Source: Plantactinospora soyae
GTDB lineage: Bacteria; Actinomycetota; Actinomycetes; Mycobacteriales; Micromonosporaceae
Direction of reading: 5' to 3'
NCBI RefSeq assembly: GCF_014874095.1
Contig: NZ_JADBEB010000001.1
Coordinates: 7,254,001 to 7,318,000, forward strand
DNA: 64,000 nt
Both the position numbers and the translations under genes were made by a program. Positions 8,117-63,340 of the stretch are shown piece after piece. The notes under the pieces were generated by a model. It was given only the letters and a program-made list of their open reading frames with translations, made no database searches and had not been told where the DNA came from. Positions within the stretch are counted from its first letter, which is position 1. Each line of letters begins with the position of its first letter.

Positions 8117-8947
8117 TCAGGGGTTCCAGTCCACGAGAACCTGCACGCGGCCGAAGCGTTGCGCGATCAGGTCATCGCGTTGGATCGCCCAGAAGATGCT
8201 CGCGCCCGCGCCCGGCCTGCTGACGTTGCACTCGGCCAGTAGGACCCAGTCCTCGGCGTTGGGTGATGTCGTGCCGGCGGGTCGGTAGCCCGACCGCTCC
8301 GCCCTGATCGCCACGCTGGCGGCTGTCCCGACAGGATCGCCGCCGTTGTAGTCCGTGCCGTATCCGCCCAACAGCATCGGCGCTCCGCCCCACTGGTTCT
8401 CCCACACTTCGGCCAGTTCCTCGGAATGGGGATGTCCAGGGACCGGTGCCGCCCACGGAGGTGCCTGGAGCTCGACCGTGCCGACGAAGGGCAGCGAGAC
8501 ATCGACCGTAAGGTGCAGCTCGCCCTCTGGAAGCTCCCGGTAGACCCCGGCATACTCCGGCTCGTCGGGCGGGAAGGCGGAGGGGTACTTCTGTCGCTCC
8601 TCGACGGCCGCGCCGGCCGGCACGTACACCACGTCGCCCATGCCGTCCTCGTCAGGCCAGCCGAAGAAGAGCAGCCGGCCGTCAGACGGCAGCGGAAGAT
8701 CCGTCACGCCCGTCGGAAGGGCCGCGCAGTCGATGGTGGCGAGAAGGGGGCACTCGGGGTCCTCGGCGTCGGCAGGCAGCATTACCGGACCGCCGAACCG
8801 CCCCACGACCGGGCCATCCCCGCCCTCCGTCAGGAGCGCGCACGGGCGGACGAGGTCCATCCATCGCTCCACGTCGGCGGCCGGGATGTTCCTCCGCAGC
8901 GCCTCGGCGCGAATCTGGTCGAGGATCTTCACATTTCGCGAAATCAC
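8117..8947 (-). CDS. DUF1963 (YwqG-like) protein
   Basis: 276 residues. The central part matches DUF1963: GRFGGPVMLPAD near residue 50, then CPLLATIDCAALP, GRLLFFGWPDEDG and the late GGYGTDYNGGDP with a terminal FWAIQRDDLIAQRFGRVQV. The family is cytoplasmic and of unknown biochemical role; members often occur near polymorphic-toxin immunity or other accessory genes. The start is GTG 8947; a second in-frame GTG (before KILDQIRAE) is possible. It stands alone between the mannanase terminator and the FetB-like gene. Confidence 0.8.
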   Translation of the reverse strand: MISRNVKILDQIRAEALRRNIPAADVERWMDLVRPCALLTEGGDGPVVGRFGGPVMLPADAEDPECPLLATIDCAALPTGVTDLPLPSDGRLLFFGWPDEDGMGDVVYVPAGAAVEERQKYPSAFPPDEPEYAGVYRELPEGELHLTVDVSLPFVGTVELQAPPWAAPVPGHPHSEELAEVWENQWGGAPMLLGGYGTDYNGGDPVGTAASVAIRAERSGYRPAGTTSPNAEDWVLLAECNVSRPGAGASIFWAIQRDDLIAQRFGRVQVLVDWNP

Positions 8948-54891: not shown

Positions 54892-56346
54892 TTACCGCCG
54901 TTTGCGCGGCAGGGCGCTGAAAAGCGGCGGGGTCTCCCAGGCGGGTTCGCCTCGGCCCTGCCAGCGCTCCAGGTCTGGCGTTTCCAGACGGGGCCGGCCC
55001 GACAGGTACAGCGCGGTAGCACCGACGAAGCCGATCGCGGCAATGCCGAGACAGATCCAGAGCGCACCGCGGGTGCCGGTTGCCTGGTCATCGCTCAGGG
55101 TTCCGGCGAGGAACACGAGGATCGGGGCGGTGAGGAAGGCAGTCACGGCCCGCAGCAGCTCGATCAGGGCGAAAACCCGCTGCAGCATCTTCGACCGCAG
55201 GGAGAGACCCGCCAGGAACAGGGCCGGTGATACCGCCGCTGCCACGCCCAGCCCGAGCAGGCCGGTGGCCACCGCGAGGGCGGGACTGACCGTGGGGAAC
55301 GTGGCTATCAACAGTGCCGCGGATGCCACGACCATCAGCAGGCCACCGGCGGTCAGCAGCGGGGTGAACCGGGTCCGGAACAGTAGCGCGAACAGTACGG
55401 CGACGGCGACGGCGGCAACGAGTTCGGGGATGAAGATTTGCGCGATGATGCTGGGTTTGCTGCTGGTGTGCAGCGCGGTCAGGAGGAGTTCGGTGGCGCC
55501 GATGGCGGCGGCACTGGCGGTGAGGGCGGCGAAGATCCCTGCCAGGGGAACCGAGGTGGCGAGTTGCTTGACCGGTACGAGCGGGTTGGGCAGCCGGTAC
55601 TCGTAGACGACCAGGAACGCGATCAGGGCGGCTCCGGCGGCCAGGGGAACGATCGACTGCACGTCGGCGCTCATGCTGGCCTGCAGTTGACCCGCGCCGT
55701 AGAACGCGGCACCGCAGCCGATCACACCCAGACCCAGCGCGACGAAGTCCCAGGGCGCGCTGGGATCTTGAGGCGGGACGTCGCGGAAGGTCAGGACGGA
55801 GAACAGCAGCGCCAAGCCGGCTATCCCCGCCACGCCCCAGAACAGCCACCGCCAGCTTCCCCCGGTGGCTTGCAGCGCGCCGATGGTCGGGCCGGCGGCC
55901 ACGGCGCCGAAGATGCACAGGTTCAGGAGGCCGGCACTGATCGGCATCTTGGAGACGGGCCAAGAGGTGACCAACGGCGGTAACGCGGCGATCAACATGA
56001 GGCTGGTCAGCAGCCCCTGGGCGATGAAGGCCGCGATGAACACCGTCGCGTTCGGCGCCGCGGCAGCGAGGATGGATGCGACGAAGAAACAGACCTCATA
56101 GATGATCAGCATGCGTCGCGGCGGAAGGTGCATGGCGAGCTGCGCGGCCAGCAGCGTGCCGACGGCGTACGCACCCGCGGACAGGCTTGCCGTCACCTGC
56201 AACGTTGCGCGGGACATGCCGAGGCTGGTGGAGATGATCTCGCCGAGCGGGATGACGGCCACCGTCAGGACCAGGTACGGGGCCAGGGAGAAAACGACGA
56301 GTGCCACCGCGCCCAGGTAGCTTTTTGCAAGGGGCCCCTGACGCAT
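54892..56346 (-). CDS. MFS transporter, 14-helix drug-exporter type
   Basis: 484 residues from ATG 56346. About 14 transmembrane helices. The N-terminal half has LVLTVAVIPLGEIISTSLGMSRATLQVTASLSAGAYAVG and the motif A-like region around AMHLPPRRMLI. A cytosolic tail (LETPDLERWQGRGEPAWETPPL) ends it. Likely exports sugars or drugs. Divergent from the GH43-like gene; the LacI-type operator at 56414 lies between, so it may belong to the arabinoside regulon. Confidence 0.85.
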   Translation of the reverse strand: MRQGPLAKSYLGAVALVVFSLAPYLVLTVAVIPLGEIISTSLGMSRATLQVTASLSAGAYAVGTLLAAQLAMHLPPRRMLIIYEVCFFVASILAAAAPNATVFIAAFIAQGLLTSLMLIAALPPLVTSWPVSKMPISAGLLNLCIFGAVAAGPTIGALQATGGSWRWLFWGVAGIAGLALLFSVLTFRDVPPQDPSAPWDFVALGLGVIGCGAAFYGAGQLQASMSADVQSIVPLAAGAALIAFLVVYEYRLPNPLVPVKQLATSVPLAGIFAALTASAAAIGATELLLTALHTSSKPSIIAQIFIPELVAAVAVAVLFALLFRTRFTPLLTAGGLLMVVASAALLIATFPTVSPALAVATGLLGLGVAAAVSPALFLAGLSLRSKMLQRVFALIELLRAVTAFLTAPILVFLAGTLSDDQATGTRGALWICLGIAAIGFVGATALYLSGRPRLETPDLERWQGRGEPAWETPPLFSALPRKRR

Positions 56347-56399
56347 CTCGCCTGTTACCCGCGACAGACTTCGATAAACCCGGCAGCGACGGCACCGGG

Positions 56400-56427
56400 T
56401 TGTGGGCCGATCTTGTATCGTTACACT
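56400..56427 (+). promoter_or_regulatory. LacI-type operator and promoter of the GH43-like gene
   Basis: TGTATCGTTACA (56414-56425) is a 12-bp near-palindrome with central CG, identical (in reverse) to the site at 58502. TTGTGG (56400-56405) and TACACT (56422-56427) 16 bases apart would make a promoter whose -10 overlaps the operator. Transcription would then begin at or next to the GTG 56434, giving a leaderless mRNA. Confidence 0.65.
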
Positions 56428-56433
56428 ACTGGA

Positions 56434-57387
56434 GTGCCAGCCATTCCGCGCCCGCTCTACCGTGACCCCGTCTTCGATGGCGCGGCCGATCCGGTCCTGG
56501 TGTGGAACCGCGCTGAGCAGGCATGGTGGATGGTCTATACCAGCCGCCGGGCCAAGGCGCCCGATCTGCCCGGTGTGAGTTGGATCCACGGCACCGACCT
56601 CGGTGTGGCCTCGTCGACGGACGGTGGCGCGACCTGGCTCTACCGCGGCGTCATCCAGGGTCTGGACACCGAGTGGGGCCGGCACACGTACTGGGCTCCC
56701 GAGATCGTCGATGACGGCACCACCTACCACATGTACGTGTCGACCATCCGGGGCGTGCCGGCGCAGTGGGCCGGACACGAGCGGCACATCCGGCACTACT
56801 CCAGCCCGGACCTGGTGACCTGGCGCTACCACGCCACCCTCGCCCTCTCCTCGGACTACGTGATCGATGCCTGCGTCGCCGCACGGCCCGGTGGCGGCTA
56901 CCGGATGTGGTACAAGGACGAGGCCGACCGTTCGCACACCTGGGCCGCGGACAGCGACGACCTGTACGCGTGGCGGGTCCGCGGGCCGGCGGTACGCATC
57001 TGCGCGCACGAGGGCCCCAACGTGTTCACCCTCGGCGGATTCCACTGGATGCTCGTCGACGAGTGGCACGGCCAGCGTGTCCTGCGATCGGACGACATGG
57101 ACAGCTGGCAGCCGCAGGGGCTGATTCTCGACGCGCCGGGTCGGCACCGCGACGACGCCACCGTCGGTCTGCACGCCGACGTGGTCGTACGCGGGGACGA
57201 CGCACTGGTCTTCTACTTCACGCACCCCGAGCGGCGTCCGGACACCGCGCCGGCCACGTACGCGACTCGGCGCACGTCGATCCAGGTGGCCCGGGTGGCG
57301 GTCGAAGACGGCCGGCTCGTCTGTGACCGTGACGAGTCGCTGTCGGCGCCGATCCTTCCGCCGGGTCCGGGCGATGGCCTGCAGTAA
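56434..57387 (+). CDS. GH43-like five-bladed beta-propeller glycosidase
   Basis: 317 residues from GTG 56434; no spaced ribosome-binding site, so a leaderless message is likely. Beta-propeller features of GH43-type enzymes: general base Asp in FDGAADPVLVWN, the WAPEIVDDGTTYHMYVS strand pair, a pKa-modulating Asp in SDYVIDACVAARPGGG, and acid Glu in CAHEGPNVF. No signal peptide, so it acts inside the cell on imported oligosaccharides. Arabinofuranosidase or xylosidase activity fits the GH51 and ABC genes of this locus. Confidence 0.78.
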   Translation: MPAIPRPLYRDPVFDGAADPVLVWNRAEQAWWMVYTSRRAKAPDLPGVSWIHGTDLGVASSTDGGATWLYRGVIQGLDTEWGRHTYWAPEIVDDGTTYHMYVSTIRGVPAQWAGHERHIRHYSSPDLVTWRYHATLALSSDYVIDACVAARPGGGYRMWYKDEADRSHTWAADSDDLYAWRVRGPAVRICAHEGPNVFTLGGFHWMLVDEWHGQRVLRSDDMDSWQPQGLILDAPGRHRDDATVGLHADVVVRGDDALVFYFTHPERRPDTAPATYATRRTSIQVARVAVEDGRLVCDRDESLSAPILPPGPGDGLQ

Positions 57388-57429
57388 CATGAACCCGGGC
57401 GGGTCCTGAACGGTTTACCGGGAGCAGAC

Positions 57430-58437
57430 GTGGCGACGATTCAGGACGTGGCGAAGGCCGCCGGGGTCTCACCGATGACCGTGTCGCACGTCATCAACGA
57501 CCACCCTCACGTGCGCAAGTCGACGCGGGAAAAAGTCCTTCTCGCGATGGCCAAGCTCGACTACCGCGTCAACGTCGCGGCCCGCAATCTCCGCAAGGGC
57601 CGAACCGGCACCATCGGACTGGCCGTCCCCGAGGTCAACCGCCCCTACTACGGCCAGCTCGCGGCCCTCATCATCGCGGCCACGGAGAAGTACGGCATCA
57701 GGGTCAGCATCGAGCAGACCGGCGCCTCGCGGGAGAACGAACTCGATGCCCTGTCCCTGTCCCGCAACCGGCTCTACGACGGACTGATCCTGAGCACGGT
57801 GGGGATGGGCCCGAAGGATGTCGAACGCCTCAAGGTGGACTACCCCGTGGTCATCCTCGGCGAGCGGATCTTCGACGGTCCCGTCGACCACGTCGCCATG
57901 CCGAACGTCGATGGGTCACGAGCGGCCACTCGTCACCTGATCGACCGCGGCTGCCGGCGCATCGCGATGCTCTCCGGACAGGTCGGGGACGAGGTTGACG
58001 TGTCGAGCCTGCGGCGTTCCGGTTACCGGCTGGCACTGGAGAGCGCGGGCATTCCCTACGATCCGGCCCTCGTGCACGAACTCGGGTCGTCCACCATGAG
58101 GGCTGGCGCCGAGCGGATCCGGGCGATGCGCGACGGGGGCGCGGACTTCGACGGTGTGTTCTGCGTGACGGACACCGTGGCGGTAGGAGTGCTGCGCGGG
58201 CTGGCCGACCTGGGGATCCGGGTACCCGACGAGGTCAAGGTGATCGGCTTCGACAACGTCGAGGAGGGCGAGTTCCTCGTGCCGTCGCTGTCCACCATCG
58301 ATCCGGACCACGTGATGATGGCGACCCGGGCGGTGGACCTGCTGGTCCGGCGGATCGAGGGATCCACGTCGGTTGACGGCCACGAGGAGTTCGTCAGCCA
58401 CTTCTCCCTGGTGGCGAGGGAGTCGACCGGCGGCTGA
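57430..58437 (+). CDS. LacI-family transcriptional regulator
   Basis: 335 residues from GTG 57430 with GGGAG upstream. Helix-turn-helix at 2-50 (TIQDVAKAAGVSPMTVSHVIN, hinge AARNLRKGRTGTIGLAVP). The rest is a periplasmic-binding-like sugar sensor (YDGLILSTVGM, DGVFCVTDTVAVGVLRGL, VIGFDNVEEGEFLVPSLST). It sits between the two copies of TGTATCGTTACA, which it probably binds to repress the GH43-like gene and the ABC operon until an arabinose-type sugar is present. Confidence 0.93.
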   Translation: MATIQDVAKAAGVSPMTVSHVINDHPHVRKSTREKVLLAMAKLDYRVNVAARNLRKGRTGTIGLAVPEVNRPYYGQLAALIIAATEKYGIRVSIEQTGASRENELDALSLSRNRLYDGLILSTVGMGPKDVERLKVDYPVVILGERIFDGPVDHVAMPNVDGSRAATRHLIDRGCRRIAMLSGQVGDEVDVSSLRRSGYRLALESAGIPYDPALVHELGSSTMRAGAERIRAMRDGGADFDGVFCVTDTVAVGVLRGLADLGIRVPDEVKVIGFDNVEEGEFLVPSLSTIDPDHVMMATRAVDLLVRRIEGSTSVDGHEEFVSHFSLVARESTGG

Positions 58438-58501
58438 TTCCGTCGCGTACCCGTAGGTCGGGTGGGTCCCGAGTTCCCTATTGTGCAACATTACGGAAAC
58501 A

Positions 58502-58513
58502 TGTAACGATACA
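58502..58513. promoter_or_regulatory. LacI-type operator of the sugar ABC operon
   Basis: TGTAACGATACA, the exact reverse complement of the site at 56414-56425. A possible promoter (TTGTGC 58481-58486, TAACGA 58504-58509) overlaps it. The binding-protein gene starts 180 bases downstream. Confidence 0.65.
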
Positions 58514-58693
58514 AAACATGGTCGAGGTCACATCCCCGCCTCCGGGCGGCGCGGTGATCGGGGTCAGCGGCAGGACGCCCACCCGCCCCCGGAGACGTGG
58601 CCGTGACCGAGGGCAGGCCCCTCCCCCGGCCGATCCACGATGCCGCCGACTGTCTGTCCACACGAACATTCGGGTAGCGAAAGGATCCTGACG

Positions 58694-59929
58694 ATGCGAC
58701 GACCCCTTGCCGTGCTGACCACCGCGCTCGCCGTGACCGCGCTGTCGCTGTCACTGTCGGCGTGCTCCGACGACGACGGCGGCGGGGGCAACACCCTGTC
58801 GGTGCTCTCCTGGGACAACGAGACCACGATGCAACCGGTGCTCGACGCCTTCCGGGCCGCGCACCCCGACATCACGCTCGAGATGTCGTACTCCCCGCCC
58901 GTCGCCGAGTACATCCAGACACTGCAGACCCGGGTGTTGTCCGGCAAGGCTCCCGACGTCTTCCTCATCGCCGCCGAGAACAAGACCAACCTCATCAACG
59001 GTAAGCACGTTCTCGACCTGTCGAACGAGCCGTTCATCAAGGGCCTACCGGAGATCAACACCAAGACGTACGGACGGGACGACGCCGTCTACGGCCTGTC
59101 GGTCAGTTCCTGGGGCGCCGGCATCATGTACAACAAGGACCTGCTGGCCAAGGTCGGCGCGACCGAGCCACCACAGACCTGGGACGAGTTCCTCGCCCTG
59201 TGCGCCCGGCTCAAGGGTGCCGGCATCACCCCGTTCCTGGAGGCGCTGGACGGCATGCCGACGGTGCTGTCGGCGTTCCTCGGTGCCCACAACGTCGCGC
59301 AGGGCCTCCAGATGGACACCAGAATCTTCAACGGGGAGTCGACGTTCGCGCGCGAGTGGGCGGAACCGCTCAGGCAGTACAACCGCATCTTCGCCGACGG
59401 TCTGGAACCGTCGTCGGTGGCCGGACTCAAGCCTGACCAGGTGGTCGACGAGTTCGCTACCGGCCGGGTCGCGATGTTCCCGTCCGGCCCGTGGAACATC
59501 GCGAGCATCCGGCAGAAGGCGCCCGACCTGAAGTTCGCGATGGTGCCCGTTCCGGCCGCGCCCGGGGGCAGCGTCTTCCTGGCCGGCGCGGCGGGCCCCG
59601 GCTGGGCGATCAGCGCCAAGTCCGAGAACGTCGACGCCGCCCGGACGTTCCTGACGTTCCTGGCCTCGGAACAGGGCATCAAGCCCTATCAGAAGGCCAG
59701 CAACGCGATCACCGTCACCGAGAACTTCGAGCCGCCGATCGACGAGGCGCTTCAGCCGATCGTGGCGAACGTACGCGCCGGCAGGTTCTACCTGCCGCAG
59801 ATCGCCTGGACCCGGGCCGAGGACCTGCTGAACGTCGAGGCGGTGGCGCAGTTGCAGCTCATGGCGCAGAAGCAGGCCACACCCGAAGAGGTCGCCGCCG
59901 CCCTCGACCGCAAGCTCGCCACGTCCTGA
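58694..59929 (+). CDS. Sugar ABC transporter substrate-binding lipoprotein
   Basis: 411 residues from ATG 58694 with AAAGGA upstream. Signal peptide ending LSAC, lipidated Cys24, then an acidic/Gly linker. SBP_bac_1 fold: LSVLSWDNETTMQPVLDAFRAAHPDI, VLSGKAPDVFLIAAENKTNL, YGLSVSSWGAGIMYNKDLLAKVG, ATGRVAMFPSGPWNIASIRQ. Oligosaccharide-binding members have this length and aromatic content. First gene of a four-gene operon under the LacI-type site. Confidence 0.93.
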   Translation: MRRPLAVLTTALAVTALSLSLSACSDDDGGGGNTLSVLSWDNETTMQPVLDAFRAAHPDITLEMSYSPPVAEYIQTLQTRVLSGKAPDVFLIAAENKTNLINGKHVLDLSNEPFIKGLPEINTKTYGRDDAVYGLSVSSWGAGIMYNKDLLAKVGATEPPQTWDEFLALCARLKGAGITPFLEALDGMPTVLSAFLGAHNVAQGLQMDTRIFNGESTFAREWAEPLRQYNRIFADGLEPSSVAGLKPDQVVDEFATGRVAMFPSGPWNIASIRQKAPDLKFAMVPVPAAPGGSVFLAGAAGPGWAISAKSENVDAARTFLTFLASEQGIKPYQKASNAITVTENFEPPIDEALQPIVANVRAGRFYLPQIAWTRAEDLLNVEAVAQLQLMAQKQATPEEVAAALDRKLATS

Positions 59930-59989
59930 CCCTCGCCGGTCCGGTGGCGGGCCCGGTGGCCCTCACCCCGTCCACAGGAGGAGACAGCC

Positions 59990-60946
59990 ATGTCTACGCT
60001 CGCACCTCCCGGCTCGACGGCGGCCGCCACGTCCGCCGTGGGCCAGCGGCGTCCGGGTCGCCGCGGCAGACGGGACGGGCTCACCGCACACCAGTTGTTC
60101 CTGATCCCGGTCGCCGCGGTCTTCGTGGTCCTGTTCGTCATTCCGCTCGGCCAGACCGCCTACTGGAGCTTCACCGATTTCAGTGGCTACTCGACCGACG
60201 TCACCTTCGTCGGCCTGAAGAACTACCGGCTGATCCTCTCCGACGCCTCGATGTTGGCAGGGCTGACGTTCACGATCCTGTTCGCGATCGGCACGACCCT
60301 GCTCGTCACCGTCGTCGCGGTCCCGCTGGCCGTCGCACTCAACCGTCGCTTCCTCGGCCGCAACCTGGTCCGGTCGGTGTTCTTCTTCCCGTCGGTGCCG
60401 AGCCTGGCCATCCTGGGACTGGTCTGGGGGTACATCCTGTCCCCGCTGGGCTCCGGCGTGCTCAACTCGGCGCTGGAGAAGCTGTTCGGTGCCGGGCCGG
60501 TCCCGTGGCTGTCGGACGCCAACCTGGCACGGGGATCCGTGATCGCCGTCGCCGTCTGGGGCACCGCAGGCTGGCACGCCGTGCTGTACCTGGCCTACCT
60601 CCAGTCCATTCCGGCGGAGTACTACGAGGTCGCCACCCTGGACGGCGCCTCGGCCCTGCAGCAGTTCCGGCGGATCACGCTGCCACTGCTGACACCGGCG
60701 ATCGTCATCAGTCAGTTTCTGCTCATGACCGGCGGGCTGAAGGTGTTCGACCTGCCCTACACGCTGACCAAGGGCGGGCCGGGGTACGCCACCCAGACCA
60801 TCACCCAATCGATCATCACCAGTGGCGTCGGGCAGGGCCGGTACGGCCTGGCCTCGGCGCTGGCCGTCGTCTTCACGATCGCCGTCGCGGCGTTCTCCAT
60901 CGGCCAACTGCTGGTGTCCCGCCGGATCGAGAGGAGTGTCCTGTGA
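59990..60946 (+). CDS. Sugar ABC permease, MalF-like
   Basis: 318 residues from ATG 59990 behind GGAGG. N-terminal cytosolic stretch of ~35 residues, then six helices. The EAA loop is EYYEVATLDGASALQQFRRITLPLL. CUT1-family permease, partner of the following gene. Sixty bases after the binding-protein gene. Confidence 0.92.
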   Translation: MSTLAPPGSTAAATSAVGQRRPGRRGRRDGLTAHQLFLIPVAAVFVVLFVIPLGQTAYWSFTDFSGYSTDVTFVGLKNYRLILSDASMLAGLTFTILFAIGTTLLVTVVAVPLAVALNRRFLGRNLVRSVFFFPSVPSLAILGLVWGYILSPLGSGVLNSALEKLFGAGPVPWLSDANLARGSVIAVAVWGTAGWHAVLYLAYLQSIPAEYYEVATLDGASALQQFRRITLPLLTPAIVISQFLLMTGGLKVFDLPYTLTKGGPGYATQTITQSIITSGVGQGRYGLASALAVVFTIAVAAFSIGQLLVSRRIERSVL

Positions 60947-61761
60947 CCCGCGCCCGGCGCGTACTGCTCTCGCTGGTAATGATCGCCCTCGCCGGTGTGG
61001 TCGGGCTGCCGCTGTACTACATCGTGGTCAACACGTTCAAGACACAGCCCGACATGACGGCCACACCGCTCGGGCTGCCCTCGCCGTGGTACTTCGGCAA
61101 CTACACGGAGATCTTCGACCGCGTCCAGATCCTGCGCAGCTTCGCCAACACCCTCTACGTCACGATCGGGTCGGTCCTCGTGCAACTGGCGGTGGGCGCG
61201 ATGGCCGCGTACGGCATCGTCATGCGCGCCACCCGGTTCAACCGGGTGGTCGGGGTGGTGCTGCTGATCGCCTTCGTGGTGCCCACCCAGGCCACCCTCA
61301 TCCCGCTGTACCGCACGCTGGTCGAGGTGGAGCTGGTCGACTCGCTCAACGGCCTGATCGTCATGTACGCCGGCGGCGCCATCTTCTCGTTCTTCCTCAT
61401 CCACGGGTACATGAAGACGTTGCCCTTCGAGATCGTCGAGGCGGCGCGCATCGACGGTGCGGGCGTGTGGCAGATCTTCTGGCGGATCGTCCTGCCGCTC
61501 ATCAAACCCATCCTGATCACCGTCGGCGTGTTCCAGACCATGTGGGTCTGGAACGACTTCATCACGCCCAACGTGTTCATCTCCTCGCCGGACAAGCGCA
61601 CCGTCGTCCTGCAGGTCTACAACGCCGTCGGCGAGTTCACGACCGACTGGCCGGCGTTCATGACGCTCTCCGTCGTCGCACTGGTCCCGATGGTCGTCTT
61701 CTTCGTCTTCACGCAGCGCCACATCGTCAACGGCCTGCTCTCCGGTGGTGTCAAGGGCTGA
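60943..61761 (+). CDS. Sugar ABC permease, MalG-like
   Basis: 272 residues from GTG 60943, overlapping the previous stop (GTGA). Six helices; the EAA loop is [27 protein letters not shown]. Completes the membrane part of the CUT1 transporter. No ATPase gene lies in the operon, so the shared MsiK-type ATPase encoded elsewhere would power it, as in other actinomycetes. Confidence 0.93.
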
Positions 61762-61804
61762 CCGGACACCGCGCACCCGACAACCACTTCCGAGGAGCAC
61801 AGCA

Positions 61805-63340
61805 GTGACCACCGCGCCCATCCACGCCGTCGTCAACCTCGACCTGCCCGGCCCCACCATCAGCCGCCACGTCTACGGCCACTTCGCCGAGCACCTCGGA
61901 CGGTGCATCTACGACGGGTTCTGGGTCGGCGAGGACTCCACGGTGCCGAACGTCGGCGGGATCCGCGCCGACGTCGTCGAGGCGCTACGGGCGATCGCGA
62001 TCCCGAACCTGCGCTGGCCCGGCGGATGCTTCGCCGACGAGTACCACTGGAAGGACGGCATCGGCCCGCGCGAGCAGCGACCCCGGATGGTGAACACGCA
62101 CTGGGGCAACGTCGAGGAGAACAACCACTTCGGCACGCACGAGTTCATGGCGCTGTGCGAACTTCTGGGCGCGGACCCGTACGTCAACGGCAACGTCGGA
62201 TCCGGCACCGTCCGGGAGATGAGCGAGTGGGTCGAGTACCTGACCCGCGACGGTGACTCCCCCATGGCCGCGCTGCGCAAGGCGAACGGACGTGACCGGC
62301 CATGGCGGGTGCCGTTCTGGGGCATCGGCAACGAGGCGTGGGGCTGCGGCGGCAACATGCGCGCCGAGGCGTACGCCGACCTGGCCCGCCGGTACGCCAC
62401 GTTCGTGCGCGACCACGACGGCAACCAGGTCTACCGCATCGCCGCCGGCGCCAACACCGACGACTACGCGTGGACCGAGACCCTGATGAAGACGCTGAAC
62501 TGCCTGGGGTGCTCCCGCCAACCGAAGGGCCCGTTCCAGGCACTCTCGCTGCACTACTACACCCACAACGGCGAGGGCGCCAAGCGCGGAACGGCGACCC
62601 GGTTCACGACCGACGACTACTACCTCACCATGCTCCGGGCCCGACACATCGAGGAACTGGTACGCGGACACGCCGCCGTCATGGACTGTTACGACCCGCA
62701 CCGGGCGATCGGGCTGGTCGTCGACGAGTGGGGCACCTGGTGGGACGTGGAGGAGGGAACCAACCCCGGCTTCCTCCACCAACAGAACACCATGCGGGAC
62801 GCGCTCGTGGCCGCGGTTCACTTCGACGTCTTCCACCGTTTCGCGGGACGGGTCGTCATGGCCAACATCGCGCAGACGGTCAACGTTCTCCAGGCGATGC
62901 TGCTCACCGACGAGCGGACCGGCGCGCTCGTCCGCACTCCGACGTACCACGTGTTCGCGATGAACACCGGGCACCACGACGCGCGGGCGCTCACCGTACA
63001 CCTGCGCGGTGACCTGCCCCGGGTCGATGTCGAGGGCGCCGAGCTGAGCGTGCTGTCCGCGTCGGCGTCCACCAAGGACGACTCCGCGCTGGTGTCGCTG
63101 ACCAACCTGCACGCCACGCAGGCCCAGACGGTCGTCCTGGACCTGCGCGGGCGGGAGTTCACCGGCCACGAGGCGCACCTGCTCACCGCCCGGTCGCTGA
63201 CCGACCACAACAGCGCCGAGAACCCCGACGGGGTCGTGCCGACACCACACACCGGTGTACGTACACACGCCCGCGGGCTCGAGGTCGACCTGCCGCCGCA
63301 CGCGTACGTGACGGTACGTCTGCGGCTCACGGCGATCTGA
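61805..63340 (+). CDS. GH51 alpha-L-arabinofuranosidase, intracellular
   Basis: 511 residues from GTG 61805 after GGAG. GH51 (beta/alpha)8 enzyme: [20 protein letters not shown] at the start, [20 protein letters not shown], acid/base Glu177 in [13 protein letters not shown], nucleophile Glu308 in VVDEWGTWW. The C-terminal ~130 residues form the family's beta-sandwich. No signal peptide. It cleaves arabinofuranosyl residues from imported oligosaccharides. Forty-three bases after the permease gene, in the same operon. Confidence 0.95.

Follow-up and report, generated by a model that had tools for sequence, protein, structure and literature searches.

Identical sites around a GH159-lacI gene pair of Plantactinospora soyae as probable operators of a local LacI-family regulator

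Introduction

Local sugar regulons governed by LacI-family proteins generally share an even palindrome with a central CG, few targets and autoregulation (PMC4052901). In bifidobacteria, AbfR and AauR are local LacI-family proteins predicted to act as repressors of genes for the use of alpha-arabino-oligosaccharides, with GH51 (AbfR) or mainly GH43 (AauR) arabinofuranosidases and a sugar ABC transporter under their control (PMC5928203). Here we describe a locus of the actinomycete Plantactinospora soyae that shares these traits. It is located in a stretch of 64,000 nucleotides (contig NZ_JADBEB010000001.1 of assembly GCF_014874095.1, positions 7,254,001 to 7,318,000 of the forward strand; hereafter the window), in which two copies of the 12-mer TGTATCGTTACA enclose a gene of glycoside hydrolase family 159 (GH159) and a gene for a LacI-family regulator (lacI), followed by genes for a sugar ABC transporter and a GH51 enzyme. 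We consider it probable that the two 12-mers are operators of the LacI protein encoded between them, which would repress both operons, with an arabinofuranosyl oligosaccharide or its product as inducer.

By analogy, this system would work like AbfR/AauR and be of an ordinary, well-supported and well-known kind, a likeness drawn from published descriptions. It differs in that GH159 takes part, which the part of the bifidobacterial source available to us does not mention for bifidobacteria (PMC5928203). With regard to LacI local regulons in general, words that begin with "arabino" occur 0 times in the main text of the respective publication, and Actinobacteria are under-represented there (PMC4052901). 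No paper on this regulator was found by title or beginning of abstract, in a literature search that did not combine GH159 and LacI as a pair and did not extend to RegPrecise or to subscription papers.

For a regulator type found in several families of actinomycetes, the locus offers a concrete candidate operator that is unique in the genome. It links GH159, a family little studied so far, with an uptake operon and with GH51 as a partner, and yields a pairing of residues with bases for LacI proteins that are not of the TVSR class, the PM pair among them. The value is mainly in annotation and in a ready test case.

Two identical sites in the window and in the genome

The preliminary description of the window had reported TGTATCGTTACA at 56414-56425 and, without any mismatch, its reverse complement at 58502-58513; both places were verified in the sequence. 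The identity reaches 13 bp (TTGTATCGTTACA, 56413-56425 on the plus and 58502-58514 on the minus strand). The 12-mer is near-palindromic, and the family consensus is TGTATCGATACA. The two sites had been described as flanking the lacI gene, which needs correction in that two genes are located between them, GH159 and lacI. The sites delimit two putative operons, GH159-lacI and a second one comprising the genes for a solute-binding protein (SBP), two permeases and GH51.

The genome of 9.72 Mb (a single contig of 9,715,930 bases) had been proposed for a scan for further copies of the 12-mer. It does not hold many unrelated ones, since there are only two exact copies, both in the window, the reversed-pattern control yields 0, and looser neighbours are not enriched: the 13-mer TTGTATCGTTACA at up to three mismatches is found at 81 + 79 = 160 places genome-wide versus 113 + 96 = 209 for the control. 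Within the window, TGTATCGTTACA at up to two mismatches is confined to the two operator places, each on both strands, and thus gives 4 matches (shuffled sequences: mean 0.78, with 0 of 100 reaching 4). A weight matrix built from 32 sites in other genomes, picked by motif similarity and with the window left out, assigns scores of 29.6 and 27.3 to the two operators, while no other place in the 64 kb scores above 8.8.

Conservation of the operator with this LacI type

For comparison, a GH159 alignment was scanned against genome contigs, and the best 80 of 461 relatives were kept as loci (labelled L plus a number). LacI protein searches yielded six matches at E up to 1e-100 among 394 genomes of the class, own genome included, and matches in 3 of 200, 7 of 22 and 10 of 199 genomes of three families at E up to 1e-95. 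The alignment of 34 LacI rows comprises 26 of the window type, with recognition residues [P/A/L]M-TVS-[N/H], and 8 of a sister clade with [F/I]K-TVS-N. All counted loci were collected by protein similarity, never by operator site. A LacI ortholog at 68-76% identity is encoded within the fetched stretch in 12 of the best 80 GH159 loci, where GH159 is 60-74% identical; some of the GH159 contigs are short (e.g. L037, L072, L089), and the lacI gene may fall outside the stretch. The LacI ortholog in L044 shows 48-49% identity.

Of the 26 loci with the window type of LacI, 15 contain TGTAWCGWTACA exactly (14 of 25 if the window is not counted) and 20 contain it with at most one mismatch. Among the 67 GH159 loci without this LacI, exact TGTAWCGWTACA is found in none and a one-mismatch site in 4, the reversed control giving 4 one-mismatch places in 3 of these loci. 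None of the 8 sister-clade loci, which have other recognition residues, displays exact TGTAWCGWTACA. In a whole-genome pattern search of 15 genomes (that of L032 left out), TGTAWCGWTACA was detected in 7, with all 11 places (each on both strands) at this locus and 0 for the control. The site is located before GH159 in 6 of the 12 loci with GH159 and LacI, as the exact 12-mer in four Nonomuraea and as TGTATCGATACA in two Actinoplanes. Both of these, Actinoplanes couchii (L030) and A. rectilineatus (L032), also have the 12-mer in reverse orientation between lacI and the SBP gene (assigned by Pfam in L030), as in the window. Where a close GH159 (73-74%) is not accompanied by a LacI ortholog, as in L026 and L027, the exact site is missing from the whole genome as well. 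The notion that the 12-mer acts as operator of the adjacent LacI regulator is thus supported by sequence comparison.

This distribution also bears on the question of chance. Short words recur in large genomes and no consensus promoter was found at the sites (see below), as might be expected of two identical 12-mers without function. However, the reversed pattern has no match in this genome or in any of the 15 searched for comparison, sites at matching positions are kept in other genera, and 56 permuted half-site families each match 0 of 26 loci. We therefore regard a mere coincidence as improbable in the extreme.

On the LacI tree, loci labelled as having an exact or a near site are no more clustered than under shuffling: each label requires 5 changes, a number as low as this being reached in 251 and 276 of 500 shuffles, respectively. 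Since the test sets two labels against each other and skips 13 unlabelled rows, we rely solely on the comparison with the sister clade of 8 rows.

A similar site elsewhere in the genome

With one mismatch allowed, the 13-mer has a single further place in the genome, TTGTATCGTTTCA at 4451371-4451383 (L024:4972-4984; matrix score 17.5), just downstream of a strong TTGACA-type promoter and ahead of a rhamnogalacturonan lyase gene of family PL11. This sequence is also one mismatch from TGAAWCGWTTCA, a palindrome with 5 places of its own in the genome (1260323, 4537576, 4559126, 5974128 and 6531811; L157-L161), of which one precedes a gene of the GH78 alpha-L-rhamnosidase type and another is flanked by a second lacI gene and the gene of an ABC ATPase. 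TTGTATCGTTTCA is equally near to this motif, and for this reason was not counted as a third target of the regulon, though it may be one. The five TGAAWCGWTTCA palindromes possibly belong to a separate rhamnose or rhamnogalacturonan regulon.

The PL11 site could also be taken to indicate that the 12-mer is read by another LacI paralog or by a global sugar regulator, its place beside this lacI being incidental. LacI paralogs are numerous in actinomycetes (PMC4052901), CG-centred palindromes are common in the family, and six genomes retain the LacI ortholog without the exact site. Yet a global regulator is hard to reconcile with only two exact sites in the genome, the site follows this LacI type across families while exact copies are missing from all 67 GH159 loci without it, and the PL11 site fits the separate TGAAWCGWTTCA motif, with its places before GH78-type and ABC genes, equally well. 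Reading by a paralog or global regulator thus appears very unlikely.

Regulator protein and recognition residues

The regulator displays a helix-turn-helix domain (PF00356, 67.4 bits, cutoff 27) and a periplasmic-binding-like effector domain (PF13377, 117.2 bits, cutoff 26.5). Its recognition residues are P15, M16, T17, V18, S19 and H20. In the code published by Camas et al. (2010), residues 15/16 are tied to half-site bases 5/4, residue 20 to base 6, and the hinge residues A51 and L54 to the central CG (PMC2978694). The locus agrees with this code in these residue and base positions, and A51 and L54 are both present together with a CG-centred palindromic operator. Among the 32 sites outside the window, which were picked by motif similarity, the central CG is invariant and the outer operator position is T in 32 of 32. 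The difference is that the code was drawn up for proteins with TVSR, for which base 6 is G; here residues 17-20 read TVSH, all 34 aligned rows have TVSN or TVSH, and base 6 is T. The palindromes predicted for the PM pair, according to that source, "lack an experimental test" (PMC2978694).

The sister clade (8 rows, branch support 100/100, residues [F/I]K-TVS-N) provides a natural contrast. Six of its 8 loci (L143-L147 and L154) contain TTACAACGTTGTAA, which no other locus examined has and which was not found in the sister loci L153 and L155. In L143-L147, close relatives that do not count as independent, it is located ahead of the SBP gene. The recognition residues covary with the site: rows with [P/A/L]M-TVS-[N/H] go with TGTAT half-sites, and 6 of 8 loci with [F/I]K-TVS-N go with TTACAACGTTGTAA. 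The change of residues 15/16 from [P/A/L]M to [F/I]K goes alongside a change of bases 5/4 from GT to AC, with residue 20 being N or H and base 6 being T in both (bases numbered from the operator centre, in our own reading). This covariation agrees, at the level of sequence, with the published positions, though both clades are outside the TVSR class (PMC2978694).

Based on this dataset, we tentatively hypothesize a natural specificity-swap pair outside the TVSR code, in which [P/A/L]15-M16 with N/H20 would read TGTATC and [F/I]15-K16 with N20 would read TTACAAC, both beside operons of sugar ABC transporters and glycosidases; the system of the window might also be a LacI-controlled mixed-furanoside cluster (L-arabinofuranose and D-galactofuranose) around GH159.

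As a separate observation, TTACAACGTTGTAA is the core of a perfect palindrome at L143:10558-10577, likewise present in L144-L147 and L154, which adjoins the gene of the sister LacI with F/I15 and K16.

Genes of the locus and the question of substrate

The features of the locus are listed in Table 1. The gene downstream of operator 1 had been called GH43-like. Its Pfam score for GH43 (PF04616) is 23.9 bits against a gathering cutoff of 32.2, and its best solved relative is Ch_Gaf159A of Caldicellulosiruptor (7zei), so that the GH43 assignment was given up in favour of GH159. The alignment extends over residues 1-303, and the catalytic residues D19, D142 and E190 of Ch_Gaf159A are matched by identical ones. 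Replacement of these residues in GH159 enzymes leads to loss of activity (PMC9278983). The gene described here differs in being part of an actinomycete cluster beside a lacI gene. No signal peptide was seen in the GH159 protein by eye, a judgement made without a prediction tool. Among proteins of solved structure, the GH51 protein is most similar to alpha-L-arabinofuranosidases.

Table 1. Features of the putative regulon and its surroundings (positions in the window).
Feature	Position	Strand	Remarks
Operator 1, TGTATCGTTACA	56414..56425	+	8 nt upstream of the GTG start codon of GH159; taken as control of GH159-lacI
Operator 2, TGTATCGTTACA	58502..58513	-	180 bp upstream of the SBP start; taken as control of SBP-permease-permease-GH51
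GH159 gene	56434..57387	+	7zei Ch_Gaf159A, E 6.8e-93, residues 1-303
LacI-family regulator, 335 aa	57430..58437	+	PF00356 and PF13377 above cutoff
Sugar ABC transporter SBP	58694..59929	+	PF01547, PF13416; ortholog 69% identical in L044
ABC permease, MalF type	59990..60946	+	PF00528; 77% in L044
ABC permease, MalG type	60943..61761	+	PF00528; 73% in L044
GH51 alpha-L-arabinofuranosidase	61805..63340	+	PF06964, 146 bits, above cutoff; 2vrk, E 6.4e-180
Divergent MFS gene (DHA2/EmrB-like)	54892..56346	-	PF07690; TIGR00711 below cutoff; placed outside the regulon
Candidate promoter 1, TTGTGG-16 bp-TACACT	56400..56427	+	inferred; weak, missed by consensus scan
TTGTGC box, possible -35 element	58481..58486	+	inferred; 15 nt before operator 2

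In relatives, the operator precedes GH51 genes (exact in L120, L124 and L141; near in L123, L142 and L152), GH43 genes (twice in L148, and in L151), a pair of GH31 and GH51-type genes (L150) and the gene of a large protein with laminin-G and sialidase-N domains (L151). Several genomes thus display the operator ahead of genes of arabinofuranosidase families and of sugar ABC transporters, as would be expected of an arabinoside regulon. Arabinoside specificity of the regulon appears likely in view of these GH51 and GH43 genes behind the operator in other genomes. The compact arabinoside regulon of the preliminary description accordingly holds as to its compactness (two exact sites in the genome) and as to GH51 here and GH51 or GH43 in relatives. 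It does not hold for GH43 in the window, nor for the divergent MFS gene, which had been named as a possible member and is unsupported: MFS relatives at E 1e-10 (blastp) are absent from the 80 GH159 and 20 LacI-ortholog loci, and the single match at E 1e-3 (L094) is a weak one of 26% over 186 residues.

The assignment to GH159 makes beta-D-galactofuranoside a live alternative substrate. GH159 was first described as a family of beta-D-galactofuranosidases; its enzymes, which have no signal peptides, cut pNP-beta-D-galactofuranoside and also certain arabinoxylan oligosaccharides (PMC9278983). The same regulator and operators could thus respond to a beta-D-galactofuranoside, e.g. from fungal galactomannan, with GH159 and GH51 releasing D-galactose and a galactofuranosyl oligosaccharide as inducer. 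This would be consistent with the lower activity of three Caldicellulosiruptor enzymes on pNP-alpha-L-arabinofuranoside (PMC9278983), with the two activities of the Streptomyces GH51 protein ORF2125 (PMC4560423), and with the presence of GH159 beside this LacI in the 12 loci mentioned above. However, this LacI type and its operator are also found next to GH51 (L120, L124, L141) or GH43 (L148) in fetched stretches that contain no GH159, and the solved proteins nearest to GH51 of the window are alpha-L-arabinofuranosidases. We consider a galactofuranoside ligand unlikely, though deserving of attention, and an arabinofuranosyl inducer remains our preferred reading.

Among 298 genomes belonging to the order, GH159 was detected in 9. 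Within the genus, the present genome is the only one of 7 with GH159 (E up to 1e-3), and the same is true of GH51 (E up to 1e-50), with no match in the 6 other species searched. For this reason, the cluster at 56434-63340 looks accessory in the genus or horizontally gained.

Promoters and proposed mechanism

Each operator had been said to overlap a candidate promoter. A TTGTGY-N15-TGTAACGATACAAA arrangement, which includes the box near operator 2, is common to the window and the two Actinoplanes loci L030 and L032 and speaks weakly in favour of this claim; consensus elements do not, TTGACA at up to two mismatches being absent 12-24 nt upstream of both sites. Searching this same interval in 27 sites (tandem sites counted once) revealed a perfect TTGACA 20-22 nt before the site in 4, all in other genomes (500 shuffles: mean 0.06, maximum 2). 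The gap of 8 nt between operator and start codon recurs in A. couchii L030, with ATG in place of GTG. With candidate promoter 1, transcription would begin at GTG 56434 or directly beside it and result in a leaderless mRNA.

The positions of the operators suggest repression by blocking of the polymerase, rather than activation; site positions led to the same conclusion for LacI proteins of Caldicellulosiruptor bescii (PMC8579813). In the proposed mechanism, a LacI dimer would bind the CG-centred palindrome TGTATCGATACA, which takes the form TGTATCGTTACA here. Site 1 is located just ahead of the presumed GH159-lacI operon, by which the regulator would also control its own synthesis, and site 2 ahead of the presumed operon of SBP, two permeases and GH51. 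Without inducer, bound LacI would block RNA polymerase at both promoters. An alpha-L-arabinofuranosyl oligosaccharide imported by the ABC transporter would be cut in the cytoplasm by GH51 and GH159, and the repressor would be released either by the oligosaccharide itself or by a product, e.g. arabinose.

Several observations weigh against this model. Scanning 56300-58720 with the sigma-70 consensus gave no promoter, hence none overlapping either site, and TTGACA with one mismatch allowed is still found before 4 of the 27 sites, which is within the range of shuffles (mean 0.99, maximum 5). Six of the 26 loci of this LacI type have no site within one mismatch, namely the Streptomyces records L081, L085 (best site at two mismatches), L089 (contig beginning 134 bp before lacI), L093 and L103, and L122, which holds 247 Ns. 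In 6 of 13 searched genomes with a LacI ortholog (L081, L085, L089, L092, L093 and L103, Streptomyces-type) there is no exact site anywhere; near sites are found before GH51 in L092 (TGTATCGCTACA) and L085 (TGTACCGCTACA), and a weaker candidate in L103 (TTTACCGGTACA at 8251, matrix score 13.5). In L025, L029 and L031, GH159 is preceded by a site but the ABC genes are not. The LacI identity threshold was our own choice, and the loci are related, not independent. Several sites fall within over-long, mechanically called reading frames, with true starts judged by eye. The gene araA, at genome position 7791978, has no operator site, and arabinose catabolism itself would therefore be outside the regulon. 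Finally, three tested GH159 enzymes are weaker on the arabinofuranoside than on the galactofuranoside (PMC9278983).

Additional observations

In L148 and L151, the place behind the operator that GH159 occupies in the window is taken by GH43 genes. L149 and L151 (family f51) have operators in pairs, at distances of 21, 24 and 46 bp. In L025, a rhamnogalacturonan lyase gene directly adjoins lacI. Directly before the operator, the four Nonomuraea loci L025, L028, L029 and L031 display a G+C-rich inverted repeat (GAGGAGGGC...GCCCTCCTC-like), which is perhaps the terminator of the preceding gene.

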